DNA of 64,000 bases, from positions 930,001 to 994,000 of the forward strand of contig NC_060254.1 of the NCBI RefSeq assembly GCF_921293095.1. Reading direction: 5' to 3'. This stretch comes from Ischnura elegans (lineage: Eukaryota > Arthropoda > Insecta > Odonata > Coenagrionidae). The translations under genes were made by a program, and so were the position numbers. Below are positions 30,967 through 60,336 of the stretch, piece after piece. Under the pieces are notes generated by a model that did no database searches, had not been told where the DNA came from, and saw only the letters and a program-made list of their open reading frames with translations. Each line of letters begins with the position of its first letter. The first letter of the stretch is position 1.

Positions 30967-31358
30967 TCATTTATAGCCCTGAAATCGTGCAAAACAGCTT
31001 TCAAGACATAATCCTGGTTTGCCTGGACATAGATCGCAGTAATAGCTCGACTCTATCCGCATATTTGCATTTTTACAGATGATACATCTCTTTCTTACTT
31101 TTATTTTTTTCATTCCGGGGAACGTCTTTCGAAATATGGATGTTTTTTGACTTGGGATCTTCTGCCCATGATTCTGGAGGTGGACGATGTTGATAAATCA
31201 GTGATTGAATCACACTATCCCGAAATTGCAAGAGAGTCAGTTTTTCATTATTGCTGAAAATATTATACAGTATAAAGGCATTGTTAAGTATAACATGGAA
31301 TATGTGAACGCCAACTTTGGCATACCAGCGAAGAGTTTTTCTTTCACAGGGGTAGTAT
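30967..31358 (-). pseudogene. piggyBac transposase, C-terminal piece
   Basis: The minus strand encodes YYPCERKTLRWYAKV and a hydrophobic helix with NNAFILYN, the region after the third catalytic Asp in piggyBac transposases. After a frameshift near 31085 comes the Cys-rich tail, with CIICKNANM, YYCDLCPGKPGLCLESCF and stop at 30967-30969. Its upstream end coincides with the insertion at 31359. Joined to 34849-35130 with one AT removed, the frame continues through the GVDRCDQ region without a gap. Confidence 0.88.
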
Positions 31359-31759
31359 CCCAGATAGCACAAAGTAAGTGAGTTAACCGTTTCTTATGGT
31401 TTTCTTACGGAAAAAATTGATAAGCAGCTTATCGTAAGCTAAGGGACTTATATAAGGCTAGGGTAAGACGTTAGGGACGTTTAGGTAAGGAATGCCGTCA
31501 AATATCCTCAGGCAATGTAAGTCACTTCTGTTGGAGCGCCAAAGGCGGCTGAACAGCGTACTACACATGCTACGCGGCTCATCTTGACATGAATTTAAAG
31601 GCTATTGGGGAAATTTAGCGAGTTTTTATAAGGGCTGAACAGCTGATAACAGATTTTCCCGTAAATAGAAAAAAATTAATAACTGCAAGCAACCGGCTAG
31701 TGAAGATATGAAGCATAGTACAAGTACTCTATCCATGCGGCGGAAAGAAAAAAAATTAC

Positions 31760-31826
31760 ATCAGGGTGGATCCGAACGTGCGACCCTCGGAACCGAAGTA
31801 CTACACGCTAACCACTACACCACGGC
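31760..31826 (-). repeat. tRNA-derived sequence
   Basis: The minus strand reads GCCGTGGTGTAGTGGTTAGC (A-box like) and then GTTCGGATCCACC (B-box like) at tRNA spacing. The acceptor stem is imperfect, so it is probably a SINE head or tRNA pseudogene rather than a working tRNA. Confidence 0.6.
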
Positions 31827-32738
31827 AGTTGTTGTAAATTGGAGGCGTAGTTACTAATTAAATATCCAATTATGTAAAAAAAAACTTGTTTGGCATGTGC
31901 ATGAAAAACTGAATTTATTCAAGGCCCATACATTTTAACATTTATGAATTTTAAATTATGGTTTGATAACCCGATGACTGCAATACGTATATTAGATGTT
32001 CCTTCCGGCATTTTTATATTACTCTACGTTGGTATTCTTGTGAAATTGTGTTTTTCTTACGACCTTCGTTAAGCTATCAGTTCATAAATGTGAATGATTT
32101 TCAAATTATGGCGGTATGATGTTATTTCTCCTCATAATATAGAAGCGCCAACAATAAAAACATTTTCTTAATGCATGAAGGCCTTAATTAACACTCTGTA
32201 ACGATGGGATAATAACAGCATCTACGGAAGTGCTGAAAGTTTGGCATCCATTTTGCCATTACTCTGGATGTTTGTCGCCCTGGCCGTAAGAAACCCATAA
32301 CAACCCAGACGGCACAGGAAGTTTTCGTACCTAAATACGAGGGTGGACAATCGAGATACAAAAATCGCGCTTAGGAAGTTACTTAGAAGGTTTTGTTTCT
32401 TTATTTCCTTTAATGACGAAAAAAGATGCAAGAGGACTGGCAAATTCATATGCATCGATAAAATTGTATCTCATCGATAAAACTGTATTCGGTCTGGGAC
32501 TATTTTCTTTCGCGGGTGGTGCCATCTGGTGCCATCGTGCCATATCCTCCTAGAAAGATCACATGCCTTCACAAGCCGTTGGAGATGGCATGGTTTACGT
32601 CACGTCTCACCACATTTCAGGGATTATTGTGGTTAAGTTTGTGAAAAATAGAGTGTATGGTAATGGTGAAGTTTCCCTTATTCTTTAATTTCATTCTCTG
32701 GGCTTCAGAAACGTGTTTGTGAGATATTTTTGTTAAAA

Positions 32739-33531
32739 ATGCCTTCCGTGTGTGTAATGTCGGTATGTAATGGAAACTCCGGGACATGGCTCAAGTTTTT
32801 AGCTTTCCAAAAGATCCTGAGTTGAAGAAGAAGTGCATTTGGGCGATAAGAAGAAAACATTTCACCCCTACGAAAAGCTGTGAGGTATGTACTCTTTCTC
32901 GCTGTAATTATTTGGATGTAATTTTAAGTTAGAAGTGCATCAACATCCCGAACTATTCAGTACTATTGTACTATTCAGTACTAAAAATGGCGATTGAAAA
33001 TATTGTAGCAGCAATTCTTTTGAAAATTCTTGCATTTTAGTTGTCTTTTTTGTATTAATTCATTCGGTAAACGTGTGGTTAAAAGGAGAAACTAGGATTA
33101 AGCTGCCAAGTTTATAGGATCGAATATTGCTTCTTAGCTTGCCCTATGGTGTATTACACGTCGGCTTTCATCATTTCAAATTATCTTATGCTATAGTGTA
33201 AAACAATAAAAATATCAGGCATACAAATATTTACTATATTTACGAGCCTAGTAATTTGATTTCTCATGCAGAAATACCAAAAATTGGAAATGATTTGACC
33301 TAATAAGTTACATGGTATTTTATTATTTATTAATTTTAGGTGTGTGAGCTTCACATCGCACCATTGTGATATCAGAAAGTAATCTGTGGCCTTGGACGAG
33401 AAGACGAGGAGAAAATTCTTGCTGAATTGAAGGTGCCCAGATTGGAGGAAGATACCATTGCTTCACTGTTACCTGTCGCCAAGAAGACAGACATTGTGGC
33501 AGAAGTGACATATTTGTGGATGTGGATTTGA
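32739..33531 (+). pseudogene. THAP-domain protein gene of the CCCAGACGG element
   Basis: Exon 1 (32739-32884) starts MPSVCVMS-CNGN, the first Cys pair of a C2CH THAP zinc finger. It then shifts frame before VFSFPKDPELKKK, W-x-x-IRR and FTPTKSCE. A GT-AG intron (32885-33339) leads to exon 2 (33340-33531), which begins VCELH, the closing C-x2-H of the finger, then has an in-frame TGA and a charged helical tail ending at 33531. THAP domains bind DNA and occur in P-element transposases and relatives. No transposase catalytic domain is present. The same frameshift is in copies 1 and 3, so it predates their spread. An ATG at the start of the second frame (MAQVFSFP) might allow a shortened product. 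Confidence 0.78.
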
Positions 33532-34308
33532 TTTGTGCAAGTTGGTGCAGTGATAGTGGACGTTCATCGGAGAAAGTATTGACGATAGTTTGTATGTATC
33601 GACCAGTCCTCTTTTAAATAATTTTCTATTCGAAAGAGAATAAGAGTAATTGTTTCGCTAAATTAGATGTGGGATAGAAGAGAAAATTGGAAATATTATT
33701 GTGGTTGACAATAGAAAATACATAATATATGTATTGTATTTCTGTGGGTTTTTTCTTTCCTGCCTCTTTAAAATTTCTTGCGGTGGTGACTTCATGCAAA
33801 GTAAGTATAAAATCGGAGGTGTGATCTAAGAGATAACATGTTTTATTTTACATGTGTTTATGCTGGTGATTTGGCAGGACTTTCATATTTTTAATAGGTT
33901 GATACATTTACTGCAGTGACCTAGGGACTTTTACTCATACCAAATAATTTTTCAAATACTTTAGCGCCTGATATGGGTAAGTTTTAGTAGCTGAGACTGA
34001 ACTATACGTTAATTTTTGCTTGCATTTTGATGAATTCGATCATACTAATAGCAGATGTGTCAGCAATCCTGTTTCATCGGCAATTTTTATTTAAAAATTT
34101 TATTTCGTCAGGCTTTAGGGTAAGCTTTTTAATGCTCGTGGGCTATGTGATGTCTTATTTAGTGTCAAAATTAATTAGAATTTACTCTCATTAACATCTC
34201 AAGGTTTCCAAGTAAGTACGAGCCACTTAATGCTGGATGCTGGGGGTGCGTGAATTAGCCATGAGAATCTCATTTTTCGCAGAGTTATTTAAGTGGCCGA
34301 GTAAGTTT

Positions 34309-34455
34309 TGTAAGTTCTCAATGGGTAAATAATACTATATCATGAATTCTAATTACCATGAAAAACTCACAACCGACAAAAACTTTGTCGGTCGTGAGTC
34401 TTTCATGGTAATTAGAATTCATGATATGGTGTTATTTACCTATTGAGAACTTACA
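34309..34455. mobile_element. 147-bp hairpin MITE inside THAP element copy 2
   Basis: Reverse-orientation counterpart of 27651-27797, at the same position relative to the host element, with loop ACAAAAACTTTGT. Confidence 0.88.
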
Positions 34456-34848
34456 ATTCATAATGATTCGTATCAAGGTTCTCGCTACGGTCGGTAGCTA
34501 TCGATTGTGTTGCGTTTGATCGTGCGAGTTACGATATATCTAATTTTCGACCTAATCGATTGAGATTAGCCTGAGTGCTGTGTTCCTGCGCGCTTCGTAT
34601 CCTATCGTACGTGCTTAGTAGCGGACATTCACATGCTGCGTACGCGCTTCGTCGACAGGCCGCGAACGGAAATTATCCATTGACGAAAAGCGACGGAGCG
34701 GCATAGTATCCCCTTAGTCAATGGGTACTATGTACATACGAATTAGATACGGAGGGTTCTGTGCCGTCTGGGAAGCTTACTTGAGAAGCGACTTCCTTAT
34801 TTCTTCCTTTCACCTTATCTCAATGACTTATAATGTGCTAGCTGGGAT

Positions 34849-35130
34849 GCTAATAATTGGTCACATCTGTCGACCCCTCCCATACACTCTCGTTATATTT
34901 TAGGACAGCCTCAGGTTTTTGAGTAACCTTACCAGAGCGGGATTTGTGTTCAGACATACGGACGCCAAACTATGAGGACACAATAAGAACGTCACATTTG
35001 TCTCGCCATTTGAGAACACAGATGCCATTATTAGAGTAAGTTGCTTGTACATTACCAGGCTTCAACTTTTTTTTGCACTAAATCTGATGGGTTACCTTTC
35101 CGGTTCGCCTTCAAAGTTCCTGTTACGTAT
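34849..35130 (-). pseudogene. piggyBac transposase, third piece (third catalytic Asp)
   Basis: The minus strand continues the piggyBac protein: VTGTLKANRKGNP, then after a one-base slip in an A-run ICVLKWRDKCDVL, then KPEAVLKYNES and, after another slip, GVDRCDQLL, the context of the third catalytic Asp. Both ends stop exactly at insertion boundaries (34846 and 35131). The preceding piece (58743-59034) ends DRKT and joins here as RKTYVTGT when one AT is removed. Confidence 0.88.
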
Positions 35131-35506
35131 CCCAGATAGCATGCAAGCTTGCAGCAAACTTGTCATAGGCTTGTCATTGCCCAGACGGCACAGAACCCTC
35201 CGTATCTAATTCGTATGTACATAGTACCCATTGACTAAGGGGATACTGTGCCGCTCCGTCGCTTTTCGTCAATGATAATTTCCATGCGCGGCCTGTCGAC
35301 GAAGCGCGTACGCAGCATGTGAATGTCCGCTACTAAGCACGTACGATTGGATACGAAGCGCGCAGGAACACGGCACTCAGGCTAATCTCAATCGATTAGG
35401 TCGAAATTAGATATATCGTAACTCGCACGATCGAAAAATGTATCGAACGCAACACAATCGATAGCTACCGACCGTAGCGAGAACCTTGATACGAATCATT
35501 ATGAAT

Positions 35507-36158
35507 AGGGTAGTTTCCTTCATCAAAGAAAACGATAGGCATTGATTGCGCTTCGTTGCCCACCATTAGTGTATTCATAATACACAAATTATTTGGTTTT
35601 TGAAATACCGGTTTAGACGAATGGCAAGGGTCAAAGTTTATCCTCATTTGAAAAAGGCCAGATTGGCGCCCATGCGATTCCGCTCCGCGTGACGTCACAG
35701 GGACCTAGTTTCTACACGAGAGGATAGGAGTTATACATCGTCTGAGGTTACCAATGCATGCATGAGGCACAGAGCTCAGGGAAACATGTCTTAATAATCA
35801 CCTATTAAAACTGGCTAAGGTCGGAAAGTTTTCTTCGCTTGATAAGGTATTAATAAACCTTTTTTAAGCCATGCGCTACCAGACAGGAAGGTACTCGGCT
35901 ATCCGCTAGCATCCTGCGTCCTATCAGCGCTCAGAGCCTCGATCAAGGTCACTTCACAAGGAGAGAGGGGGAACCAGAAATGCGGCGCACGGACTTTCCT
36001 ACTTACGCGTCGCGTTTTTGCGCACTTGAAAATTTTCACTTTTCATTTAATCGCGAAAAATAGATATCGTCATTTAAAAATCTAAAAGCGCGAAATACGT
36101 ACTCCAGGAGTAATAATCTTTCGATTTAGGCAATAAAAAAATAATAGGAAACCACCCT
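35507..36158 (-). mobile_element. Non-autonomous TIR element, family A, copy 3
   Basis: A 652-bp copy with intact ends AGGGTAGTTTCC and GGAAACCACCCT, flanked by AT on both sides. Copies 1, 2 and 4 of the THAP element show the empty site GAATTGTAAG, which fixes both the boundaries and the 2-bp duplication. No ORF of note. Confidence 0.88.
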
Positions 36159-36160
36159 AT

Positions 36161-36307
36161 TGTAAGTTCTCAATAGGTAAATAACACCATATCATGAATT
36201 CTAATTACCATGAAAGACTCACGACCGACAAAGTTTTTGTCGGTTGTGAGTTTTTCATGGTAATTAGAATTCATGATATAGTATAATTTACCCATTGAGA
36301 ACTTACA
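36161..36307. mobile_element. 147-bp hairpin MITE inside THAP element copy 3
   Basis: Nearly identical to 27651-27797 and in the same orientation. Family A copy 3 inserted directly beside its left end. Confidence 0.9.
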
Positions 36308-36890
36308 AAACTTATTCGGCCACTTAAATAACTGCGAAAAATGAGATTCTCAAGGCTAATTCACGCATCCCCAGCATCCAGCATTCTTAAGTGGCTCGTA
36401 CTTACTTAAAAACCTTGAGATGTTAATAAGAGTAAATTGTTATTAATTTTGACACTAAATAAGACATCACATAGCCCACGAGCATTAAAAAGCTTACCCT
36501 AAACCCTGACGAAATAAAATTTTTAAATAAAAATTGCCGATGAAACAGGATTGCTGACACATCTGCTATTAGTATGATCGAATTCATCAAAATGCAAGCA
36601 AAAATTAACGTATAGTTCAGTCACAGCTACTAAAACTTACCCATATCAGGCGCTAAAGTATTTGAAAAATTATTTGCGATGAGTAAAAGTCTCTAGGTCA
36701 CTGCAGTAAATGTATCAACCTATTAAAAATATGAAAGTCCTGCCAAATCACCAGCATAAACACTTGTAAAATAAAACATGGTATCTCTTAGATCACACCT
36801 CCGATTTTATACTTACTTTGCATGAAGTCACCACCACAAGAAATTTTAAAGAGGCAGGAAAGAAAAAACCCACATAAATACAATACATAT

Positions 36891-37600
36891 ATTATGTATT
36901 TTATATTGTCAACCACAATAATATTTCCAATTTTCTCTTCTATCCCACATCTAATTTAGCGAAACAATTACTCTTATTCTCTTTCGAATAGAAAATTATT
37001 TAAAAGAGGACTGGTCGATACATACAAACTATCGTCAATACTTTCTCCGATAAACGTCCACTATCACTGCACCAACTTGCACAAATCAAATCCACATCCA
37101 CAAATATGTCACTTCTGCCACAATGTCTGTATTATGTATTTTCTATTGTCAACCACAATAATATTTCCAATTTTCTCTTCTATCCCACATCTAATTTAGC
37201 GAAACAATTACTATTACATAAAAAATTATTTAAAAGAGGACTGGTCGATACATAAAAACTATCTTCAATACTTTCTCCGATGAACGTCCACTATCACAGC
37301 ATCAACTTGCACAAATCAAATCCACATCCACAAATATGTCACTTCTGCCACAATGTCTGTATTATGTATTTTCTATTGTCAACCACAATAATATTTCCAA
37401 TTTTCTCTTCTATCCCACATCTAATTTAGCGAAACAATTACTCTTATTCTCTTTCGAATAAAAAATTATTTAAAAGAGGACTGGTCGATACATAAAAACT
37501 ATCTTCAATACTTTCTCCGATGAACGTCCACTATCACAGCATCAACTTGCACAAATCAAATCCACATCCACAAATATGTCACTTCTGCCACAATGTCTGT
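36891..37600. repeat. Tandem triplication within THAP element copy 3
   Basis: ATTATGTATTTT begins at 36891, 37131 and 37361, giving units of 240, 230 and about 240 bases, each ending GCCACAATGTCTG. Copies 1, 2 and 4 have this segment once. The second unit has lost about ten bases near 37210-37220. The segment includes the end of THAP exon 2, so two extra truncated coding ends were created. Confidence 0.9.
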
Positions 37601-37729
37601 CTTCTTGGCGACAGGTAAAAGTGAAGCAATGGTACCTTCCTCCAATCTGGGCACCTTCAATTCAGCAAGAATTTTCTCCTCGTCTTCTCGTCCAAGGCCA
37701 CAGATTACTTTCTGATATCACAATGGTGC

Positions 37730-38017
37730 TGAGGGGGAAGGTGCAGTACAGTCAAATAAACCACCTCAATTAAACAATAACAATGTATTTTCGTTAGATC
37801 GTTCAATACAGAATAACGCCGGTTGGCGTGGTCACGGTAGCGTGCGCACAGATCACCAGATTCGGTCGGACTCTCCGGAAAAAGTAATGGCGGCGCCCAG
37901 TCAGCGGCGTGGTCGACCATTGCGACCTCTGGCTGTGTCGTCTCCGAACTCTCGCGACAATTGCCGGTCGCCAGGCGCACCAACGGCTGGCGCGCGGATT
38001 TAAATTGTGCCGCCACA
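37730..38017 (-). repeat. 3' LTR of the CsRn1-like element
   Basis: On the minus strand it starts TGTGGCGGCACAATTTAAAT and ends CCTTCCCCCTCA. It differs from the 5' LTR (42148-42435) by G/A in the GCGCACA-ATCACC tract and by ACGGCTGG versus ACAGCTGG. Confidence 0.93.
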
Positions 38018-38031
38018 TCACCCCCTCCGCA
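38018..38031 (-). promoter_or_regulatory. Polypurine tract
   Basis: The minus strand reads TGCGGAGGGGGTGA directly before the 3' LTR, in the position used to prime plus-strand synthesis. Confidence 0.85.
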
Positions 38032-38169
38032 GTCTTTAGGCCACTAAAGAATTTAGAGAAAAAAAAGTAATTAGTGACAATCAATAGGGTTGGGGGGGGG
38101 GGGGGAGGGAATGGAAGCCACAGTGCAGTGACCGCCGCCAGTGATATTGCAAAAAAAATAATATATCGC

Positions 38170-41100
38170 CTAGGTGGCGAACTCCTCCAAGTGCTTGGGG
38201 AAATGGACCCATCTCCCGGAGCGGGTTGCTCGTTGCGCCTGTCCGGGATCGGTCAGCGATGTCGCCGGAGGGTCGATGGCAGGCGGTGTTGTGGTGCTGG
38301 CTGGCGGTGGTCCCGATGTACCACCGGCGTCGTGACGTCCGTCCTCCGCTGCCAAGATGTACGATGGTTTCAGGCGGTCTAAGGATACCGCCTTCTCCTT
38401 GCCCTTCATGTCGACCACGAAGAACTTGGCGTCGCGGCTTACGACGCGGAAGGGGCCCTCGTACGGCGGTTGCAGTGGGGGCCGGGTGGCGTCCGTTCTC
38501 ACGAACACCTGAGAGGCTGACTGGAGGTCCTTGTGGACAAAGACTGGCCTCTCTCCGTGATGCGAGGCGGGAACGGGTTGGATCCGTCGGAAGTGTCGGC
38601 GCAGCTTCACGACGAATGACTCGTCCTCGTTGTCAGGCTTGGTAGGAGCGAAGAACTCTCCAGGAAGGCGAAGAGGCTCTCCGTAGACAAGTTCCGCCGG
38701 TGATGCGCCGATGTCGGCTTTCCAAGCTGCTCGAATGCCGAGAAGCACAGCAGGTAGAGTGTCGTACCAGCTGTCGGTCTCGTGGCACATGATAGCAGCC
38801 TTCAACTGCCAGTGGAATCGTTCCACCATTCCATTGGCAGCGGGGTGGTACGCAGTGGTGCGCAGATGACGGGCACCGGTGAGCACCGAAAGCCGGTGAA
38901 AGAGAGCAGACTCGAACTGCCGGCCTTGGTCCGTGGTGACTCTCAATGGGGTGCCGAAACGCGAGATCCAGCCGCGAAAGAACTCGCGTGTGACCGTATC
39001 TGCTGTTACGTCTGATGTTGGGATGGCTTCAGCCCATCGCGAGTAGCGATCGACACACGTGACGAAATAGCGGTAGCCATTGGACACTGGCAGGGGTCCT
39101 ACGATGTCAAGGTGGACGTGGTCGAAGCGCTGCGATGGGGAAACGAAACTGGCGATGGGGGACACTGTATGACGATGCACTTTGGACCGTTGGCACGGGA
39201 TGCAGGCTCGCGCCCAGGTGCGGCAGTCCTTCCGCATCGACGGCCACACGAACCTTTCGGAGACCATTTTGGTGGAGGCCTTAATGCCAGGGTGGGACAA
39301 TTGATGGAGGGAATCAAACACCGGCTTACGGAACGACTCCGTAAGGTAAGGTCTTACCGTTGGGGTCGAAACGTCGCACCAGACTTCACCATTGCATCCG
39401 GGGACGCGCACTTTCTTTAACTTAAGGGGATTGTCAAGTTCATCGCACTTGGAAAAGGATTGCGCCTGCGAGCGTGCAAGCGCGTCAAAATCAATTCCAC
39501 CTGAGAGCGCTTCAACTCGCGAAAGGGCGTCCGCGACAACGTTCTCCCGACCGGCGACGTGTCGAATGTCGGTGCTAAATTGGGCCACAAAATTCAAGTA
39601 CCGGAACTGCCGGGGGGAACACTTTTCGGGCTTCTGTTGAAAGGCGTAAACAAGGGGTTTGTGGTCCGTGAATATACAGAATTCACGCCCTTCCAACATG
39701 TGTCGAAAATATTTCACTCCTTCGTAAACGGCAAGAAGTTCACGGTCGTATGGGCTGTACTTACGCTGGGGCGGCTTCAGCTTACGAGTGAAAAAACCAA
39801 GTGGTTTCCACTCGTCACCCTCGCGTTGATTCAATGCACCACCTATTGCGTTATCTGACGCGTCACAAAAAAGGGCCAGCGGCAATCGCACATCCGGATG
39901 AGCCACGAATGTCGCGCTCACGAGAGCGTCTTTGCATTCATTGAAAGCGCGGTCTAACGTAACCGTCCACTCAATGGCATCACTACCCCTCACTCCTCCC
40001 TTTAACACTTCGCACAGGGGGGATTGCACGTCGGCGGCATTCGGAATTAACCGTCTATAGAAATTTACCATCCCAAGGAACTGACGTAGTTCCCTGGCAG
40101 TCTTGGGTATGGGGTAGCACTTCACAGCGTCAATTTTGTTCGGGGTGGGCTTAATGCCAGAGGCAGTCACTGTATGCCCAAGGAAAGTCACTTCGTCAAC
40201 ACCTAATACACATTTCGCCGGGTTAATTACAATACCGAAATCACTGAGCCGTTTAAAAAGAGCACGCAAGTGGCACTCGTGTTCATTGGCGTCGCGCGAT
40301 GCGACCAGAATATCGTCAAGGTACGCATACGCGTGATCGAGGCCTCGCAGCACTTCGTCGATAAAACGCTGGAAAGTCTGTGCAGCGTTGCGCAGGCCAA
40401 AGGGCATGCGTGTGAACTCGAAGAGTCCAAAGGGAGTGGTGAGGGCGGTTTTAGGGACACCTTCGGGGGCCACTGGGATTTGGTGGTAAGCACGCACTAA
40501 GTCTATGCGGGAAAACGCGCACTTACCGGCTAAATTGTGGGCGAAGTCCGCAATGTGTGGCACCGGGTACAGATCGGGGACGGTTCGCGCGTTCAGTGCG
40601 CGGTAGTCGCCGCAAGGGCGCCAGTCACCATCCTTTTTAGGCACTAGATGAAGTGCCGATGCCCAACAGCTGTCGGAGCGCTGCGCTGTGCCGTTCCGCA
40701 CCTTCTCCTCGAACTCCTGTTTGGCGATGTTCGCCTTATCCGGTGCAAGGCGGCGGGGCTTGCAGGCGACTGGCGGACCCGGTGTCGTCTTGATGTGATG
40801 CATCGTCGTGTGAGGAAAATCGCTGGGGGTCCCAGATGGCCGAGTGATCTGGGGGAACTCAGCCAACACCGCGTGAAAACGAGAACTATTTACAACAGTC
40901 TTCACTTGCGGGTGATTGGAGGTCACCTCACGGCCGCGGGTCGTCAACGAGGTTATGCCGTCGATTAATCTACGCTCGCGAACATCCACAAGTAGATTAA
41001 AAAATGAAAGGAAGTCGACGCCAATTATCGGTCTGTCAACGTCCGCGACGACGAATCGCCAGCGGAAGTGGCGTTTGAGACCGAAATTGAGCGACAAGTC

Positions 41101-41385
41101 GATCCATCCGTACGTCGCGATCACGGTGCCGTTCGCGGCGAACAACTGATAGGCGGATAAAGCTTTCCGTCCCTTCACTTTTGTACGGGGATAAACACAG
41201 AGGTCGGACCCTGTGTCGACCAAAAACTCTGTCTTCGTTGCGGCATCAATGACGAAAAGGCGGCGGGGCGTAGAGCAACGGCCATCGGCCGCCATTAACC
41301 GCTGCTCTTCGGGTTTTCCGCCACATAAGCACAGGGGGGGCGGCACTTGTGGGCAGCAGCACCAAACTTCCCGTGGTAATAGCAA
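38170..41385 (-). CDS. pol: Ty3/gypsy pol: protease, reverse transcriptase, RNase H, integrase
   Basis: This is a 1071-codon open frame with no stop. Protease has FLVDTGS (D57). Reverse transcriptase has [10 protein letters not shown] (D295), [10 protein letters not shown] and AYLDD (355-358). RNase H has LFCDASDNA (D508) and FTDHKPLVY. Integrase has the zinc module H694, H698, C728, C731, then HLDIVGPLP (D760), TTDQGRQFE (D819) and NGMVERFHW (E855), with a GPF module and DRLKPSYI near the end. It makes cDNA from the element RNA and inserts it. The frame overlaps the end of gag by 91 bases in the -1 frame, so expression as a gag-pol fusion by -1 frameshifting is likely; GGAAAAC at 41313-41319 (minus strand) is a possible slip site. 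The first Met shown is within the overlap and probably not a real start. Confidence 0.95.
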
Positions 41386-42092: not shown

Positions 42093-42127
42093 CTAACAGG
42101 ATGCACAAAAATAACTTAAACTCGAAG

Positions 42128-42145
42128 ATCACGTCGGGGTCACCA
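42128..42145 (-). promoter_or_regulatory. tRNA-Trp primer binding site
   Basis: Two bases inside the 5' LTR the minus strand reads TGGTGACCCCGACGTGAT, complementary over 18 bases to the 3' end of insect tRNA-Trp including CCA. Most insect Ty3/gypsy elements use other tRNAs; tRNA-Trp use marks CsRn1 relatives. Confidence 0.88.
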
Positions 42146-42147
42146 CT

Positions 42148-43686: not shown

Positions 43687-43719
43687 CCCTGAGAGCACAC
43701 GAAAAATTGTAGACGTATA

Positions 43720-48567: not shown

Positions 48568-48585
48568 ATAAAAATTATGCATATA

Positions 48586-50943
48586 CAGGGTGTCCCATTT
48601 TAAGTTCCCACCCCGAATATCTCGAAATCTGAGCAAAATGAGAAAAAATGTTTCAGATAAAAGTTATAGGGTTTACAGGGGGACATACGATGGTGATATT
48701 GTAAATGACCTTGAAGTCGATTTTCAAGGTCAAAGAAGGGGTATCTTCCATTTCTTAAATGGAAAGCCATATTTTTTATTGCAGGATCGTATTTTACGGA
48801 AAAAAATACAAACTTCTTGTTGGAAACTTTTTATTGAAAAATGCATTCCTCCAGAGTTTTCTCATAAACTTCGCTCATGTTGTTATTTGTAGTGTCACAT
48901 GGATCCTGGTTGTGATTTAGGCATTAATTACCCTCTTCAGAACAGCGGAATGAATCATCATGTGTTGTGCCCGACATTTGACCGCCTCAAGCTTCGTAAA
49001 TTCTTGAATTTTTTAAGAGAGAGTGAGGTGACCGAGAGAGGTCCTCGCGCAAATCTGGCCGGCTAACAGGGGGCTACGGGAGGAACCCTCACGGATCGCG
49101 CCGCTTCCGGAACTGAGAAAAACACGGTAGTTTCACAACAACCTAGTATCGGGTATTAGTTTTTGTGGTGAAATAATAGTCTAGTTGTTCTCGTGGTCGT
49201 AATTTTCTTTGGTGAAATATTTGTTCAGGTGTTACCTTCGTCGTTTCGAACTACTATCGTCACAAAAAAGGTAGAACGCTGAACTTTAAGCATCCTATTG
49301 AAGCTCGATGGGGTCTCGTCATATTTCTGCTTACAAATTGTTTATTCAACTACAACAATGAATCATGGAACATTGTTTAAACGTAAACATTTAGTTTCTA
49401 CGGTAAAAAGAGTGAAAAGACCACGCGAACAACAATGAAAGCATCGACACGGTCGTCTCCTTCTTCTCGTCATAGGCATAATATTTGATTGGTTATTTTC
49501 ATTGTAATTTTTATAGACAGAGCAACATCTTCACATTTCGAATAGCTTTTTAAAATTAAATGTGACCCATTCCATTATTTTAAAAATGGCCGAAAGGTAG
49601 ATTTCAATTTCCGAGGTGTGGAGATGAAAATGAATATCGCAGTCACATATGAAATATGTGAAAAAAGTTCTAAACTTTTCATGTAAGGAAATTTTTATAA
49701 TTCCTCTTTTTTTAAATAAACCAAAAAGACGGAAATCACCTCGCGGCTATGCAGAATACTATAATGACGATTTTCGCCTTTTTGGTTCATTTTAAGTACC
49801 TAAGAAGAACAATATTTGTGTATTGAAAGAAGACAATTTCCCACCAATGATTTGTAAGGTTGCAATAATTAAATAAATTCACCCAGGCTCTCACGGTTTA
49901 GTGAGAATGGTGACCGTACAAACCCCATCAGGACAATTTAAGAGACCAATCTCAGAACTGTATTTTGCCTACTTCAAATAAGTTACAAGTTATTTTATGT
50001 AATTCTTTTCAGGAAAAAGTGTTAACATTTTTCAGCGGCCGAATAAACATTTCCTTACATGAGAGGTTTAGAACTTTTTTCACATATTTCATATGTGACT
50101 GCGATATTCATTTTCATCTCCACACCTCGGAAATTGAAATCTACCTTTCGGCCATTTTTAAAATAATGGAATGGGTCACATTTAATTTTAAAAAGCTATT
50201 CGAAATGTGAAGATGTTGCTCTGTCTATAAAAATTACAATGAAAATAACCAATCAAATATTATGCCTATGACGAGAAGAAGGAGACGACCGTGTCAATGT
50301 TTTCATTGTTTTTCGCGTGGTCTTTTACACTCTTTTTACCGTAGAAGCTAAATGTTTACGTTTAAACAATTTTCCATGATTCATTGTTGTAGTTGAATAA
50401 ACAATTAGTAAACAGAAATATGACGAGACCCCATCGAGCTTCGATAGGATTTTATACTTATGCTTAAAGTTCAGCGTTCTGATAGTAGATCTACACGCAG
50501 TGAGCTTTTCAACAATTTTCTTGTGAAATGGGGGATTACACACCTCAAGAGATCGTTGAAATAATCAAAGTCGTCGGGGTGTATGACAACAATTATAAAG
50601 CTGCTGAAGACCTCTACGCAAAGGTGCATTGGCCAGAATGGACACGCAATTGAGCATTTGATGTGAGAATAAGACCTAACCAAACGCATTTTTCAATAAA
50701 AAGTTTCCCACAAAAAGTTTGTATTTTTTCCGTAGAACACGATCCTGCAATAAAAAATATGGCTTTCCATTTAAGAAATGGAAGTTACCCCTACTTTGAC
50801 CTTGAAAATCGACTTCAAGGTAATTTTCAATATCACCATCGTATGTCCCCCTGTAAACCCTATAACTTTTATCTGAAACATTTTTTCTCATTTTGCTCAG
50901 TTTTCGAGATATTCGGGGTGGGAACTTAAAATGGGACACCCTG
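48586..50943. mobile_element. Mariner/IS630-type element with long inverted arms
   Basis: Ends CAGGGTGTCCCATTTTAAG and the inverse are flanked by TA, the Tc1/mariner target. The outer arms (48586-48850 and 50680-50943) and inner arms (about 49273-49695 and 50045-50484) are inverted repeats. The segments between them differ: the right one holds the start of a transposase and the left one a mutated stretch that may be its far end. The element is a rearranged derivative and not active. Confidence 0.8.
50528..50653 (+). pseudogene. N-terminal helix-turn-helix of a mariner-like transposase
   Basis: A 41-codon frame, MGDYTPQEIVEIIKVVGVYD followed by NNYKAAEDLYAK, resembles the DNA-binding start of arthropod IS630/mariner transposases (DUF4817-like: YT-x-x-E, then AA-x-LYA). 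A TGA ends it before the expected P-x-R-x-x-F continuation, of which RIRPN remains downstream. Confidence 0.55.
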
Positions 50944-51236
50944 TATATAAATATATATATATTTTATTTATCGATTCTTCCTTCTCGCTGTCATCTATAG
51001 AAACTATAGTGTCTTGAAGTTTCTTATTGTAGATTCTGTTATCCGTCCATCATTCTAGGCTTTTGTTGGTTTCATTGTGTTAACTCTATGCTGAACCTAT
51101 GGCCATGGGGGTGTTTCAGAGTCTCATAGGATTGGCGGCGTCGGAAACGGATTCATTCCGAGTCGATTGGGAACCTATCCTACGCTCGTCTTCTGTGCGT
51201 TTCATACATACTATCGCCTTTCTATGATATCTCACC

Positions 51237-51427
51237 CAGGGGCTGATCCAGGATTTCTTTCTGGGGGGCCACTTGCAAGGCCGTATCCAGGATTTTGTTC
51301 TGGGGGGACACAGGGATAGTAATACAAAACGAACACAATGATAATGGGACCGTATTAAAAATCTTGCATATAATTAAGGGCCTGGGGGGGGGGGGGGGCA
51401 CGTGCCCCCCCCCTAGATCCGCCTATG
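51237..51427. mobile_element. Short hAT-type MITE with perfect 8-bp duplication
   Basis: A 191-bp element from CAGGGGCTGATCCAGG to TAGATCCGCCTATG, with internal G- and C-runs. ATCTCACC at 51229-51236 is repeated exactly at 51428-51435. It lies within the right part of the 43687-52007 element. Confidence 0.85.
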
Positions 51428-51649
51428 ATCTCACCTTATCTGGCCAGTCAGATGAACTTTACAGATATTGAATGTCCTTCGCTAGAATTTGGAAATGCTA
51501 TCCTACCACTTTGCTGCTGCAGAAAATGCCAACCTATTAATAACAGGTATTAATTGACAATTTTTCAAAGGTAGTCATCAAAATTGCCATAAATTCATTT
51601 CAGTTGAAAATCATGCATTTGCTACAAGATTAGCAGTATAAAATGTATG

Positions 51650-52007
51650 TATTTGTAAAAAAAATTACGTCTACATTTGGTATAACCGCAGACCAAAATT
51701 AAACCATCATAGGTTACCAGTAGGCCAAAAAAGGAAGACATTTGCACCTTATGTAGACCTGATGTAGACCAAATATAGACGTCTACATTTGGTATAACCG
51801 CAGACCAAAATTATACCATTATAGGTTACCAGTAGACCAAAAAAGGAAGACATTTGCACCTAATGTAGACCGAATGTAGACCTGATGTAGACCAAATGTA
51901 GTCGCCTACATTTGGTATACGGCAAACCATTAGGTTTGCTGTATACCACATATAGACGTCTACATCTGGTTTACATGTGGTATTCTGCAAACTTTGTGCT
52001 CTCAGGG
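51650..52007. repeat. Right subterminal GTAGAC/GTCTAC word array
   Basis: At least ten GTAGAC or GTCTAC words, many in the form TGTAGACCAAATGTAG or CTACATTTGGTATA, lead up to the right end TGTGCTCTCAGGG. They match the words at the left end of the same element but are arranged less regularly. Confidence 0.82.
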
Positions 52008-52009
52008 AT

Positions 52010-52279
52010 ATTGCACCCATAGCAGATAATTCATATCATTCCTGCTGCAGACTTGCCATATCAAACTTGCTGCAAACTTGCCATATCAAACCTGCAGCTA
52101 ACTTGCCATATCAAACTTGCCATATCACACCTGCAGCAAACTTGCCATATCAAACCTGCTACTACCCACATAGCATGTAAGCTTACGTCAAACTTGACTT
52201 TTCCTTGCCTATGTCAAGCTACCCATATAGATTTTCCATTGCCATGTCAAGGTGGAAATATTTTCTGGTCAGAAAACTC
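52010..52279. repeat. Word array of the CCCAGATAGC element, continued
   Basis: CTTGCCATATCAAAC recurs about six times with CTGCAGC and AACTTGC words, resuming the array that stopped at 43686. At 52165 CCCACATAGCATGTAAGC looks like the left end of a related element, but no partner end is seen. Confidence 0.75.
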
Positions 52280-52472
52280 ACAAGGGGAATACACGACCTT
52301 CGCATCGCCGATCGAGCTCAAATTTTGCGAATCGGTAGTTTATGGGTACAAATGTAATATGCCAAAGCGAGACGACGCACTTTTCGTAAAATTCCGAGAA
52401 AAAAGCAATTAAAAATCGTTAAAAATGAAGGTACTCTATATAACCTGTTTTGAACGTTCATGTTTAACAATA

Positions 52473-52544
52473 GGGCGCCAGCCCAGTGGATACGGTGTCC
52501 GACTGTAGAGGTGAAGGTAGCGAGATCGATGCTCGCTCAGGGAA
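52473..52544 (+). repeat. tRNA-derived head in the left arm
   Basis: GGGCGCCAGCCCAGTGGATA (A-box like) and GAGATCGATGCTCG (B-box like) at tRNA spacing. No proper acceptor pairing, so it is a SINE-type head. Its mirror is at 54099-54170. Confidence 0.6.
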
Positions 52545-54098
52545 CTTTTTTTGGTGTTAATTTTTAAGAATTTTATTGTTTCAATTTTTAAAGTTCGTTT
52601 TCTTATCTTCGTTACTACTATGGAATATATTTTTAAAAGAGTTTTTTTAAATATTTAAATCAGGAATGGATCAGCTTGGGATTAGGAACTGAGGATGAAG
52701 GGTGGATAGAAACCCGGCGTCGGCATTAGCCTGCTCTTAACGAAAGGCGCCAAGGGGACCACGGCTTAACGTCCCATCCGACGGACGGTGTACTGCACAA
52801 CTAGTGTAATCCACATTACACGCAGGGATTGAATTTAGGAATGCCCCTTAATTCTTTACCGAGATTTGGATGTGGAAGGCCAGTACACTGCCTCACCACT
52901 CCAGTTAATCCTTTATTTGCAATTTTCAGGACGGAACTCATCATAAAGACATGCAAAGCAAAGTTATTTGCGGCACCACGAACAAGTAGAAAAGGCGTTT
53001 TTTCCACAACTGCAACGACTGTCCATAATTTTTTAAGGAAAATTTGAGGCACACATCATTTACATTTACGAAAAATTGTCTCGTGCCAGCGAGCTTCGAA
53101 GCAAACATGCATGTTCAATAATTTTCCCGGAAACATATAATGTTATGTGGGTACTTGATTAACCTGTAATAGAAGAATCGAATAATTGGGGAAAGTTTTG
53201 CAAATTTTTTCCCTTTTTCGCGGCCGACGGGCATGAGCGGAAAGGGGTGATGTATGTGTATTTATTACCGGAATCACTTTTGTATGTGCTTGGTTTGTTT
53301 TCTGTTTTTGAGTTTATTTGTTGTTTTATTTGTCTGTGAGGATGTTTTTTTTGCTTTGATTTTTTTTACTGATTTGATACTATGGTGAGGAGAGATAAAT
53401 AGTAGATTGTTAGGCAGAGAGCCATCTTGGAGTGAATGTACATAAGATACAGTTTGTCAAGTGATATTTTCCTTTGGTTTTATCGCTTTGATACGTTAGG
53501 GGTACACACTTCTTTTGAACATAGAGACTCTATCCTTGGATATTCCTACGGATGAGTTAACGTGTGCGTGGCACTATTGCTGGGAGCTGCTCATCGATAA
53601 AAATTATATTAGCTGCGAACCACGCGTTCAACATTCCGATAGATCAGCCTTTTCTGCTTGTTCGTGGTGCCGCAAATCACTTTGCTTTGCATGTCTTTAT
53701 GATGAGTTCCGTCCTGAAAATTGCAAATAAAGGATTAACTGGAGTGGTGAGGCAGTGTACTGGCCTTCCACATCCAAATCTCGGTAAAGAATTAAGGGGC
53801 ATTCCTAAATTCAATCCCTGCGTGTAATGTGGATTACACTAGTTGTGCAGTACACCGTCCGTCGGATGGGACGTTAAGCCGTGGTCCCCTTGGCGCCTTT
53901 CGTTAAGAGCAGGCTAATGCCGACGCCGGGTTTCTATCCACCCTTCATCCTCAGTTCCTAATCCCAAGCTGATCCATTCCTGATTTAAATATTTAAAAAA
54001 ACTCTTTTAAAAATATATTCCATAGTAGTAACGAAGATAAGAAAACGAACTTTAAAAATTGAAACAATAAAATTCTTAAAAATTAACACCAAAAAAAG

Positions 54099-54170
54099 TT
54101 CCCTGAGCGAGCATCGATCTCGCTACCTTCACCTCTACAGTCGGACACCGTATCCACTGGGCTGGCGCCC
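54099..54170 (-). repeat. tRNA-derived head in the right arm
   Basis: Minus-strand counterpart of 52473-52544 produced by the inverted repeat. Confidence 0.6.
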
Positions 54171-54363
54171 TATTGTTAAACATGAACGTTCAAAACAGGT
54201 TATATAGAGTACCTTCATTTTTAACGATTTTTAATTGCTTTTTTCTCGGAATTTTACGAAAAGTGCGTCGTCTCGCTTTGGCATATTACATTTGTACCCA
54301 TAAACTACCGATTCGCAAAATTTGAGCTCGATCGGCGATGCGAAGGTCGTGTATTCCCCTTGT

Positions 54364-56090
54364 CAGTCATGAGATCACCCTCAAGCAGGGATGAGAATTG
54401 CTTAGATTTACAAATACATTTTCTTGGATTAATATCCCACTTAAGAAACTGCCTCCAAAAGGCGCCTTGAGGGTGCCTTTCAGGTGTTATGGCGAAAATA
54501 TTTTTTACACAATTTCTATACGGGATGTGAACAATGTACACATTTTATATATATTTTTAGAGCCTATATAGTACTTTATACAGTGTTTACACGGTATAAA
54601 ATGTACACAAGTGAATACAGTGTACATACAAAAATGTATGCGAAAGGGTCCATTTGAAATCTATGCTAAAAACAATTACTTCCATTATAACGATAAAACT
54701 GGAAGGTTGGTTTTAAGGTTTTAATAATATTTACTTAATGAGAATTATAGTAATATAACAATATAATGTTATTTGATATAATTATCTTCATATTCATAAA
54801 AAACTCAAGTAAAAAAAAATTTCCCATTATATTACGAACTTATTTTAATATTTTGGATTAAAAATCGTATTTAGAACTCGCGCCAAAACGCCCGGCGGCC
54901 GTCTTGTGTACCACGTGACCTAACGGTTACTGTTATTTTGTGATTGCGCATGGCTGTGATTACAAGCAAATTTACGTTGAAGCGTAGCCTGTTGAAGTAT
55001 GCTATGGAAGAAGAAAATAATCCGTGCTTCGTAGTGAATACTGGCAAAAAGGGATTGGAAGTATGCTGTTTCATGCAACAAATCAACGCCTGAATAAGTT
55101 TTTGAATTCCCGGAAACAGTGGCTTTTAGCGTCACGAAGAGATTCTCTGCTGTGCGGACCATGTAAATGTAAGTAAATAAACATTTTTTTTCCATTCGAT
55201 ACTTATGTATGATTAATGAACCGCCAATTACTATCCAATAATTATTTAAGATTATTCATTATTTTATTCTCAGGGTAATTACAATTTAGCATGGTCTTTG
55301 CTTTCACTGGCATAGTGAAAAGAATCCATTCAGACGGTTAAAGTTGAAATATCAGGGTTCTCGCAGTTGAAGCCACTTTGTTAACAGTTCTTTATGACAT
55401 TAAAACATTAGTCTCAACCTCAATTAACTCGTTTATGAATGATTTTTCTTGAAAATGAGTAACTATTGGGAATATGTCGAAGAATAATAGCAATTAATAA
55501 GCTGTTCTAAACATAGCCATCAGTTGAACTCTCTCCGATCATTATAATTTAGGCATTGATTTGTGCTTTAGTACATTTTTTTACAAATGCCCATCTATAT
55601 ATCGTACATTTCTGCCAGTACATTCTTAACAGGCATGTTGCACTCAAGGGCATAAGTAACACATTTCTAAGCTGTTTCTGTGCAATAAGATTGCAATTCT
55701 TAAAATTTTTGAGATGTAAAGTAATCAATTACTCGTGTTTGTTGACAGAAAAATTAGTGGTATATTAAAATCTATGGTTAGCACCTGTTTGATAAGCATG
55801 TAGGCAGGATTTATGATGATTAAGTACCAAGTCTGCTAAGGTAGTGAGCAAATCAATTGGTATAAGTGTATTTATAACAATTTTATATTTACAGGCTGCA
55901 GTAAATTAAAACTACAGAATAGCCAGCTCCTCATGTGGATGGGAGAAATGGCACCTGGGTTTTCACGCTTGTAGAGGAAAGTAGATGCTTTATTGGCTTG
56001 TGACCCAAAGCGAAAGGATGCTGCTGTGGAGGAGATGAATTTCAGCCAATACGGTAGTTTCCGTAAGCATAGATTTCAATACGGTACGGT
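54364..56090. other. Interior of the CCCAGATAGC element, no firm gene
   Basis: It includes a GC-richer patch at 54870-54910 (GCGCCAAAACGCCCGGCGG), which could be a promoter region. After it lies a stretch to 55170 ending before a possible splice donor GTAAGT, and a possible exon after ACAG at 55895. These may be decayed 5' exons of the gene ending at 57757, but I cannot read a convincing protein. Confidence 0.35.
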
Positions 56091-56707
56091 TACTCCTGGA
56101 GTACGTATTTCACGCTTTTAGATTTTTAAATGAAAACATCTATTTTTCGCGATTAAATGAAAAGTGAAAATTTTCAAGCGCGCGAAAACGCGACGCTTAA
56201 GTATGAATGTCGGGAAATCTCTCTGCGTGACGTATTTCTGGTTCCCCCTCCCGCCCTGCGAGGTGACCTTGAGGCGAGGCTTAGCGCTGATACGACGCAG
56301 GCTGCTAGCGGCTAGCCTAGTACCTTGCTGTCTGGTAGCGCTTGGCTTAAAAAAGGTTTATTAATACCTTATCAAACGAAGAAAACTTTCTGAACTTAGC
56401 CAGTTTTAATAGGTGATTATTAAGACATGTTTCCCTGAGTTCTGTGCCTCATGCATGCATTGGTAACCTCAGACGATGTATAACTCCTATCCTCTCGTGT
56501 AGAAACTAGGTCCCTGTGACGTCATGCGGAGTGGAATCGCATGGGCGCCAATCTGGCCTTTTTCAAATGAGGATAAAATTTGACCCATGCCATTCGTCTA
56601 AACCGGTATTTCAAAAACCAAATAATTTGTGTATTATGAATACACTAATGGTGGGTAACGAATCGCAATCAATGCCTTTCGTTTTCTTTGATGAAGGAAA
56701 CTACCCT
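56091..56707 (+). mobile_element. Non-autonomous TIR element, family A, copy 4
   Basis: It aligns with copy 3 from ACTCCTGGAGTACGTATTTC to GGAAACTACCCT. The left end is missing beyond 56091; the right end is followed by AT. Confidence 0.75.
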
Positions 56708-56709
56708 AT

Positions 56710-56989
56710 TATGGTATGATTGGATTTTTGTTATTTCATATGCACTTGTGCACACATACTACATGTGCGTACTAACCATGACAATTATGTTAATTATTTT
56801 GGTGAATTTTTCTTCTGGCTGTAAAAATGATTTTTAAATATTAAACAATTATGGTATGATTGGATTTTTGTTATTTCATATGCACTTGTGCACACATACT
56901 ATATGTGCATACTAACCATGACAATTGTGTTAATTATTTTGGTGAATTTTTCTTCTGGCTGTAAACATGATTTTTGTTATTCTTGTATT
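56710..56989. repeat. Two-copy tandem repeat, period 140 bp
   Basis: TATGGTATGATTGG begins at 56710 and 56850; the copies share CATATGCACTTGTGCACAC and GGTGAATTTTTCTTCTGGC. Family A copy 4 abuts the first copy, so it inserted at or beside the duplicated segment. Confidence 0.88.
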
Positions 56990-57030
56990 AGCTGGTAACT
57001 CTTAATTGATCTGATCTTTTTTATCTCTAG

Positions 57031-57757
57031 ATGCAATGTTTGGTAGCAGTTGGTAGAAGAAATGAATGAGCACTTCTACAAAATATGTGCGTCGTCTTAG
57101 AATGACAATGTAGCAGAGCTGTATTCCCTAACAGGCAAACTTCAGAAGAATTCGGTTAAGAAATCATTTTCTAGCTCTTCAGTATGTCCTATTATTTTTT
57201 GTGAGTGCATCCAATAAGATATTCTAAGATTATTATAATAATTGATCATTGAAATGAACTTTTAACATATTACATTAAGTGACATTAACTAAGTTTAATT
57301 AATTTCATAGGTGTATGCAGAAGGGTCTACCATGATGCATCTGATGTGGTGCTGAAAGGGTGTCTGAGTAATTGGCTCAACCAGGCTAAAGTCAGGATAA
57401 TAAGAAAGTAAGTAGTCGCTTCTCATTTCCCTGCCACATTAATTCGATCATCCCAGACATTTTCTTCATATTTTCCATTCCCTCTTACAATAGGTATACA
57501 CTATAATGTTCCATGGAAGTTGATTCATTTACCGCCATTATGAGAATGTGGGGGTACAATATGGACATCTCATTTATTAAATCTGATTGCTTATTCTTTT
57601 TGGAATATTAGTTAATAATTTCTCAATTTACCTCCCTGATTTAAGCAAATGATACATGATATATCATTTCACATGGAGTAATTACTACTTTCTCTTCAGG
57701 GATTGGCAGGATAAACAGACTGAGGATCAGGCTGATGAAGACAATAATTTTGCTTAA
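57031..57757 (+). pseudogene. Decayed DUF4806-like gene of the CCCAGATAGC element
   Basis: Three candidate exons follow acceptors at 57030, 57311 and 57698. The first has NDNVAELYSLTGKLQKNS and VCPII, aligning with NEVAVLFNVRG and ACPDII of the gene at 47260-48567, after an in-frame TAG. The second (57312-57408) has VVLKGCLSNWLNQAKVR, aligning with VERAIGAWLKQSYQR. It splices in frame through GTAAGT to the last exon (57699-57757), a short acidic tail. The matching exon order shows both elements carry the same second gene. Upstream exons and a transposase were not found. Confidence 0.55.
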
Positions 57758-58374
57758 TAAGTTCATCAGTAACGATCTATAAGTATGCAACCATGTAAGT
57801 TCCATGCACAACCTTGTTCTCCCATAACTAAACAAGAATTCAAAAGAATGAATTTTAAATCCTCAAAGCCAATCAGCATACTTGTGAATGTTTTGATAAA
57901 ATTCGAGCAATATGTTTTTACCTTTTGAAGATTTCTGTATTTTAGTTATTACCATGTGTGGCCTAGGGGGTCATAAATTTTTTAGTGTTTCTGTCTTTGA
58001 TGTTTCCTATTCAGTTTGTAAGTATTTCACTCACTTCATTAATAATGATTAACTATCGATGACTAGATATCTATCTTCGGTATGTCCCCCGCTGCCTCAA
58101 CATGTACATAATTAATGAGAAAAATAAACTTCAGCATTTATTTGTTGCCCATTTTATTAAATAAATTTAGCAGCCAAATTCTGTGCATGTGAAATGACTA
58201 ACAATCGATAGAGTGGAAAATTTTCAATTTTGTTGTTGTAAATTGATCATTATTTAGGAGAGCATTTTATTTAGCAGAAATTTTAAGCCAGTTTTTCCTC
58301 AGCAAGTGTCACTACAGAAATGGTAGGTGTGGAACTAGATTTCCTAGTATGTAGCAGGTGTGACACTACACGTT

Positions 58375-58740
58375 TTCAGCAGGTGTGATGTGACAAGTTT
58401 GCAGCAGGTTTGATGCGACAAGTTTGCCGCAGGTTTGTTGCGACAAGTTTGCTGCAAGTTTGAAAAAGCGTAACTAGGAGGTTTGATTCAAGCTTGCCAC
58501 AAGCTTGCAGGCTTGTCATGACAAGTTTGCTGCAGGTTTGATGCGACAAGTTTGCTGCAGGTTTGTTGCGACAAGTTTGCCGCAGGTTTGTTACGACAAG
58601 TTTGCTGCAAGTTTGAAAAAGCGTAACTAGGAGGTTTGATTCAAGCTTGCCGCAAGCTTGCAGGCTTGTCATGACAAGCTTGCTGCAAACTTGCAACTTT
58701 GTCATGACAAGCTTGCAGCAAGTTTAGCATGCTATCTGGG
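58375..58740. repeat. Right subterminal AAGCTTGC/ACAAGTTTGC word array
   Basis: Two long near-repeats of about 140 bases (from about 58400 and 58540) are made of GACAAGTTTGC, GCAGGTTTG, CAAGCTTGC and TCATGACA words. They lead into the right end GCATGCTATCTGGG. The words match those beside the left end at 35131. Confidence 0.85.
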
Positions 58741-58742
58741 AT

Positions 58743-59034
58743 GTTTTACGATCAAGACAGTAAGCTGTTAAACCAACCCCAGAATAATAGTTATCCATAT
58801 ATATTGCATGGCCTACATCTAAGTGATCTTTTATAAGGTGTTTCACGACCTTTTCAACACGGCCCGATCCACCTACTACCTTATCAGCCGAACCCCAATA
58901 TATTCTAAATTTCAATAAGAGACCATTAGGCTGTGTCAACATGTATCTATAGTTTGGTGCCATATTTGCGCCTCTTATTCTGGATATATTGCCTGAAGAA
59001 AAGGCATACCCGCCATAACAATATTGACTCATCT
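58743..59034 (-). pseudogene. piggyBac transposase, second piece (second catalytic Asp)
   Basis: The minus strand starts in DES-ILLWR and continues FFRQYIQNKRRKYG, the block following the first catalytic Asp of piggyBac. After a one-base slip it reads LLLKFRIYWGSADKVV, then AIYMDNYYSGVGLTAYCLDR, which holds the second catalytic Asp (MDNYYS). It ends at KT where the 35131-58740 insertion begins. Upstream it meets the 59035-60284 insertion. Confidence 0.9.
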
Positions 59035-60284
59035 CCCAGTGAGAAATGGATCGTCGAATCTACGTCGAATCTTCGTCGATTCGACGACTATAGATCGATA
59101 TGTGGTCGACGTCGATTTTATTTGTTCAATCGACGTTTTTTCGACGTGTTATTCTCATTGGCCAGCGGGGTCAGCGTGTTGATTGGCAGAGGGGAGAACT
59201 TAGTGATGTAGTTTTAATGTCTTAAAAATAACGGTGAGACGCTATTACAACATATGTGTCTTAAATAAGAAATATAAAATTAAATAATTATTTTATTTAT
59301 CCATAAACATTAGTTTTAATCTCCGAGAACAATCGTTGATCCCTTTTAATTCTGTAACTTGATCGTTGAAGTTCGATTGCGTGTATCAGTTGAGCTGTTA
59401 GTCGTCATGCTGTTAGTTCTTCGCAGTAAACTCGGAACAGAGACATTCGGCACCGTATAGAAAATTTACTGTCGCATTTATTTTGCGCAACAAACTTTGC
59501 TAGCTCTAAATCCTGATATTGGTATTTAAAATCCTTCTGAAACTTAATGAGCTTTTGGATTCGTATTAATCATCGAAAAAGGCATTCCGTCGCTTAGTAA
59601 AGACAAGCTTCACTACGTCTTCCATACTTCGGAATCGGTCTGCTTTTGGACCGCTGTATGACAGGCAGGATTAGCTTCCCCTATTTAATGTGTTCAAGAT
59701 TTCCATATTCACACATTTGCCACATACGCCGGACCTTCTATTTGCGTCCAAGTTCTTACTTCTTTCCTGCGTGGTATGTGATATGCACAAGCTTGGCTTT
59801 GTGACTACGTTTACCTCATTTCGATACCTTTATACTCGCGTCATAGATGTCAACACCTCACATTTTTTCTCAAGGATTTCTGATTATTATTGAAGATGAA
59901 TACGAAGGACTTAAGATTACAAATCACCATTATAAATTTGTTTCAGCCTTCATTTGTTTAGACTTTTCGTGCTCGATTGAAATACGTCGTTGGCGCAGCA
60001 ATAGATGCTCTTTATTAGCCGAAAAGATGTATATTTCCGCAATTATTAGTAGGAATCGCAGGTAAAAAGACGATATCTCGTCGACATAGAAAACTCGTCG
60101 ATGGTGTCGACGTCGAAAACACGTCGATTGCGTCGACGTCGAAAACACGTTGATGGCTTCGACGTCGAAAACACGTCGATTTTCGGACCATATAGACATC
60201 GATCGATGTGTTACCATCGACGTTTTATCGATGAGTTCTTCGGCGTCGAATCGACGTAGATTCGATGATCCATTTCTCACTGGG
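59035..60284. mobile_element. CCCAGTGAGAAATG element with GTCGAATC words
   Basis: A 1250-bp element has the same 14-base ends as 28705-29204 (CCCAGTGAGAAATG). Its subterminal words are CGTCGAATC, GTCGACGTCGAAAAC and ATCGACG (59045-59150 and 60070-60270) rather than CCACGTGGAATCC. TCT flanks both ends (59032-59034, 60285-60287); removing one copy restores Ser-Ile-Asp-Glu-Ser of piggyBac. The interior is AT-rich with no recognisable gene. Confidence 0.85.
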
Positions 60285-60336
60285 TCTATGCTCAACTCTT
60301 TAGAGGGGTAATAAAGGTCTGACATTCTTTGATGAA
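60285..60336 (-). pseudogene. piggyBac transposase, first piece
   Basis: The minus strand reads FIKECQTFITPLKS and, after a one-base deletion, LSI, leading to the first catalytic Asp at the insertion boundary. The upstream part of the protein is cut off by THAP element copy 4 at 60337, and I did not find it further right. Confidence 0.75.

Follow-up and report, generated by a model that had tools for sequence, protein, structure and literature searches.

Pieces of one decayed piggyBac copy, split by younger nested elements in Ischnura elegans

How can parts of a single piggyBac transposase come to lie tens of kilobases apart, with the reading frame recoverable at each break? The question is raised by a 64,000-nucleotide stretch of the Ischnura elegans genome (contig NC_060254.1, positions 930,001 to 994,000; G000:C9:930001-994000), called the window here and taken from an assembly of 1.72 Gb in 110 contigs. 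A preliminary description, made from the letters of this DNA, had reported one transposase gene in four pieces. The locus is nested mobile DNA, in which a decayed piggyBac copy is interrupted by several younger elements, as seen in the identity of its pieces, its unsplit relatives, the exact junctions of four inserts (A, B, C, and D2), and the nesting of further elements within them. At least six pieces of one piggyBac remnant extend across 36 kb, so the remnant is larger than first described. A single element had rightly been recognized, but the pieces number six or more and the victim was overstated, since indels that break the frame are common to it and its closest kin. The reading preferred here, to which we give a probability of about 95%, is that one piggyBac copy, surviving as a remnant of about 1.9 kb, was split by A, B, C, D2, and one more element, presumably with CACTA-type mobilization.

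All six pieces are on the minus strand. Piece 1 (60285..60336), the 5′ edge of the surviving remnant, ends at the first catalytic Asp codon and is identical at 52/52 bases to three copies found elsewhere in the genome, L017, L018, and L022. Piece 2 (58741..59034, where 58741-58742 is one copy of an AT duplication) is 96% identical to L017, L018, L020, and L022, and piece 3 (34847..35130, where 34847-34848 is likewise one AT copy) is 98.2% identical to L017. Piece 4 (30329..31358) carries the C-terminal zinc-finger coding sequence followed by 3′ non-coding DNA, and is 97.6% identical to L017 over 1032 columns. These four are real and had been placed correctly in the preliminary description, except that piece 4, given there as 30967-31358, extends to 30329. 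Its full length, together with pieces 5 and 6, which are new, emerged when 134 kb of the locus was compared with the unsplit copies. Piece 5 (27232..27322) is 97.8% identical to L017, L018, L019, L021, and L022; piece 6 (24364..24518) matches L018 at 155/155 bases, and breaks off one base short of the 3′ terminus, against another element whose end is at 24363. Of ten relatives displayed, six (L018, L019, L020, L023, L026, and L027) have GTG/TTAA at that terminus; L021, L022, L024, and L025 do not, and the window copy is cut one base before this point.

When the first four pieces are read through with X at the breaks, the product matches DDE_Tnp_1_7 (PF13843) at E 7.9e-47, over profile positions 116-349 of 349, and zf-Tnp_2 at E 1.9e-6, which bears out the joined translation originally proposed. 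Pieces 1 and 2, scanned only as a joined sequence, match DDE_Tnp_1_7 at E 3.4e-18, and piece 3 does so alone at E 2e-15. Piece 4 alone matches zf-Tnp_2 (E 1.6e-6, 28.7 bits against a cut-off of 24) and not DDE_Tnp_1_7; it also touches three other families, all below their cut-offs.

Unsplit copies, for which a search had been suggested, do exist. At the DNA level piece 4 finds 27 places in the genome and piece 2 finds 28, the window locus being counted in each. In 24 of the 27, piece 2 lies 260-320 bp from piece 4, the spacing expected of an uninterrupted element (three of these 24 carry only a partial piece 2, of 122-153 bp); at the window locus 27.4 kb separates the two. Two more copies have piece 2 separated from piece 4, one at G000:C4:5870928-5877930 (by about 6.4 kb), the other at G000:C12:76304665-76323667 (by about 18.5 kb). 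Identity to the four joined pieces is 96.8-97.5% for L017, L018, L020, and L022, and 92.8-94.1% for L023 to L027; L019 (96.7%) and L021 (95.6%) cover them only in part. All pieces match this same set of unsplit copies, in agreement with the single family first claimed, and L017, L018, and L022 are the best match for all six.

The unsplit copies also show what each junction looked like before it was interrupted. Insert and one target copy were removed, and the joined flanks were aligned to the unsplit copies. The join of pieces 1 and 2 is identical to L017 at 109/109 bases; that of pieces 2 and 3 aligns to L017 over 119/120 bases, all identical; and that of pieces 3 and 4 is 97.5% identical to L017-L022, all six of them, except for a single gap of 2 bp that lies about 40 nt off the junction and is private to the window copy. 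In a pairwise view of the join of pieces 2 and 3, L024 has a gap of 2 bp, over 50 nt away from the junction itself. Each of these three junctions is identical to L017 at 49/49 columns, and no gap occurs within 24 columns on either side in any of the nine copies of a ten-row alignment, from which L019 and L021 are left out as they lack part of the stretch. The join of pieces 4 and 5, with D2 removed, is gap-free to 11/11 copies. The target duplications at the junctions 1/2, 2/3, and 3/4 are TCT, AT, and AT; the 2-bp duplications first described therefore hold at A and B, but the first junction has three bases. Frame continuity at each junction, also claimed, is real and follows from precise integration, with no other cause required; inside the pieces, however, the frame is broken by four indels and a stop.

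Was it then a working gene that was struck? To judge from its sequence, probably not, because two of these frame-breaking indels are common to the window copy and its nearest relatives L017, L018, L020, and L022 (they are not in L023-L027). The two further indels are private to the window copy. On loci that reach no further than about 1.5 kb to either side of piece 4, the longest open frames are 127-405 amino acids in the six subfamily copies and 264-630 in the other five, three of which exceed 550. Uninterrupted family members occur elsewhere, such as a 664-amino-acid open frame at C19:105340480-105341556, beside a piece-4 match. The simplest reading would be that the subfamily was already without a working gene and spread via a transposase supplied in trans. 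Substitutions unique to the window copy are found at 14/1878 sites (0.75%), and those of its sisters range from 0.21 to 0.91%, with low figures for L019 and L021, compared over part of the sites; this count omits gap columns and copies covering less than 90% of a piece, and is no calibrated clock.

What, then, are the inserts? The A, B, C, and D types all start CCCAG. Insert B (35131..58740), a CACTA-like element delimited by its ends and the joined flanks, has CCCAGATAGCATGC ends whose first bases match at 14/14 positions, is flanked by AT/AT, and holds younger elements and an open reading frame (ORF) on the plus strand (45101..46978). The 625-amino-acid putative tnp2-like (CACTA) transposase encoded there is 25% identical (BLASTP E 3e-22) to the ORF at 21569-23188, whose protein matches Transposase_21 at E 8.1e-12, and has at least 71 genome matches, itself included (70 of 713 candidates were scored). 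DUF4218, which we take to be a companion of CACTA transposases, matches 4/5 aligned family members, B's own ORF not being among them. B's left end has 51 genome matches at up to two mismatches, including its own copy. In the 20 B-type loci cut out, the match begins at CCC and the flanks differ, 7/20 left flanks ending in AT (again with the own copy included); all 19 other loci, compared over about 1.4 kb, resemble this B for roughly the first 230 bases and no further, so that most are relatives with the same end. Insert B also contains an inverted repeat (52276-54367) whose 721-bp arms, 100% complementary, enclose a 650-bp spacer; it is possibly a young foldback element. A further repeat family of about 61-96% similarity occurs at 8671-9309, 16266-16864, 35504-36142, and 56090-56710, the last two inside B.

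Insert A (31359..34846), also flanked by AT/AT, has CCCAGATAGCACA / CCCAGCTAGCACA ends that match at 12/13 first bases, and consists of a nested element and a core, about 1.0 kb long, in which no gene was recognized. Allowing up to three mismatches, the left end of A matches the genome 318 times. Insert C (59035..60284) has CCCAGTGAGAAATGGATC inverted ends and a TCT/TCT duplication, its limits again given by ends and joined flanks. Insert D2 (27323..30328), a D-type element with TG/TG, separates pieces 4 and 5. No transposase was recognized by eye in the listed open frames of the D types, the A core, or C, the Pfam scan covering two THAP-like stretches only. The element between pieces 5 and 6 (24519..27231) is of another kind, with CACAGTGGG ends, a first base in common with piece 6, and 91-bp tandem repeats. 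These repeats, at 25804-26740, match a 300-nt reference eight times at 91-bp spacing, and the CACAGTGGG end is seen again at 66265, outside the window, within another D-type element. On its 5′ side the remnant is adjoined by a D-type element, recognized by its ends (60337..64000 in the window), with a far end at 62726 or 66507.

Several of these inserts have been struck in their turn. Insert A contains a D-type element with a weak THAP-like remnant (32304..34772), identified by its ends and AA/AA duplication. Another, with CCCAGACGGCACAG ends and TG/TG, sits in B (35180..43502), and its empty site TTGGCTTG is present in the six B copies displayed (L042, L050, L052, L055, L038, and L044). It holds a long terminal repeat (LTR) retrotransposon on the minus strand (37730..42435), flanked by GTGC/GTGC, with LTRs identical at 286/288 positions; judging by domain order, it is presumably of the Gypsy type. 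Within D2 lies a 500-bp C-type element with CG/CG (28705..29204), and the joined flanks align across this site to two D-type paralogues, with a single gap about 40 nt off.

In the proposed sequence of events the piggyBac copy would have inserted first, and A, B, and C with their CCC-core ends, D2, and one element of another end type would then have struck it. Integration of A, B, C, and D2 very probably proceeded by cut-and-paste, with cuts staggered by 2 or 3 bp, a mode in which removing the insert and one duplicate restores the original order. The D types in A and B, the C type in D2, and the LTR element in B's D type would have come later. The preliminary description held that the insertions could be dated relative to each other, which is true of the nested elements, but the side-by-side A, B, C, and D2 get no order from their position. 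Do such families prefer to land in dead piggyBac copies and inside or close to each other? This is unlikely for the CCC-core families; if true, nests would grow by attraction and not merely through tolerance of junk DNA.

The preliminary description called the two AT-flanked elements unfamiliar, a label that finds no support. In DeMarco et al. (2006; PMC1636069), animal CACTA elements are described with CCC-core ends and 2-bp duplications; the ends quoted there are CCCAGTCAAC for Aedes and CCCTAGTAGCACC... for Tribolium, and the schistosome element has a 2-bp duplication in 7/14 copies. A and B agree in both respects, with CCC-core inverted ends and, as seen against the unsplit copies, a 2-bp AT duplication. 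The C type (with three duplicated bases here, and CG in the 500-bp relative) and the D types fit CACTA by their ends only. We infer that the A, B, C, and D types were moved by CACTA-type transposases.

Other accounts of the split must be weighed. If the gaps were introns of a multi-exon piggyBac gene, collinear pieces in frame over the gaps would be expected just as observed. Yet contiguous genomic copies exist, with pieces 2 and 4 at their normal spacing, the gaps start CCCAG and finish CTGGG between target duplications instead of splice signals, and insert B holds transposon genes of its own; introns, to which we attach next to no credence, are rejected on the contiguous copies, ends, and duplications. 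The pieces might also stem from different piggyBac copies, united by rearrangement or misassembly. This very improbable account draws on the edges of the remnant, and here the preferred reading of one copy split by insertion also meets observations that weigh against it. The piggyBac 5′ part was not found within C9:900001-1034000, and an 824-base upstream stretch taken from L018 has 27 genome matches (27/27 candidates scored), none near the locus, those on C9 lying only at 43.35 and 92.0 Mb; the copy thus looks truncated at its 5′ side. The element bounding it there has CCC-core ends at both 62726 and 66507, though no matching duplication at either, and at 66508 the flank is not recognizable as piggyBac. 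No clean duplication surrounds the insert at 24519..27231, and the target there lacks six bases that relatives have. To these are added the Pfam match of the B ORF, which is weak (DUF1258, E 0.0022, below cut-off), the lack of any Transposase_21 match at E 0.1 among the five aligned members (the B ORF and four relatives), and weak THAP matches in the D types (E 0.00056 and 0.028, below cut-off). Against a mixture of copies stand the single subfamily that is best for all six pieces and the four exact junctions. Misassembly is rejected at those four; a mixture of copies may still apply to the 5′ edge and the junction of pieces 5 and 6.

The THAP matches lead to another superfamily. Could the AT-flanked inserts be of the ISL2EU type (PHIS superfamily) and not CACTA? 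PMC4482050 gives these elements AT duplications, a THAP domain, ends usually starting GG, and an AATT target, so the AT duplication at two inserts and the THAP-like remnants in the D types are points in common. However, A and B start CCC and sit in GTATGC and CGTATGTT, AT ends only 7/20 of the B-family left flanks, and B has its tnp2-like ORF. No YqaJ or PHIS transposase was noticed in the inserts, no search aimed at YqaJ having been made. An ISL2EU origin is decidedly unlikely, and for A and B is rejected on ends, target sites, and the B ORF.

With one split copy read in this way, several element families of one genome have their ends and target duplications set to the base, the unsplit copies serve as internal controls, and the nested elements receive a layered order. 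This is an ordinary case of nested transposons in a repeat-rich genome, very well documented; its value lies in exactness, as an annotation case and not a new mechanism. To the left of the nest lie an 805-amino-acid RVT_1 ORF (18375-20792), presumably of the long interspersed nuclear element type, and a CACTA-like element (21569-24363) that combines the Transposase_21 ORF with arrayed CCAGTATTTTTAATACTG-type repeats, its end coinciding with the piggyBac 3′ cut. No left end was found for it at up to six mismatches over 23 bases, and the 11 matches at up to two mismatches over 12 bases looked unrelated.

How does the locus compare with known systems? With the piggyBac superfamily it shares the catalytic region, the domain order (DDE_Tnp_1_7 and then a C-terminal zf-Tnp_2), and, in some related copies, the TTAA after the 3′ end; it differs in its broken frame, in lacking its 5′ part, and in the five or more insertions that divide it. 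The inserts differ from ISL2EU in their CCC ends and target sites. With the animal CACTA elements known as TRC (SmTRC1 and those of Tribolium and Aedes; PMC1636069), A and B have in common their CCC-core inverted ends and AT/AT duplications. The end sequences themselves differ, the duplication of insert C has three bases, and the A, C, and D types are without a recognized transposase; insert B carries a putative, distantly related tnp2-like protein.

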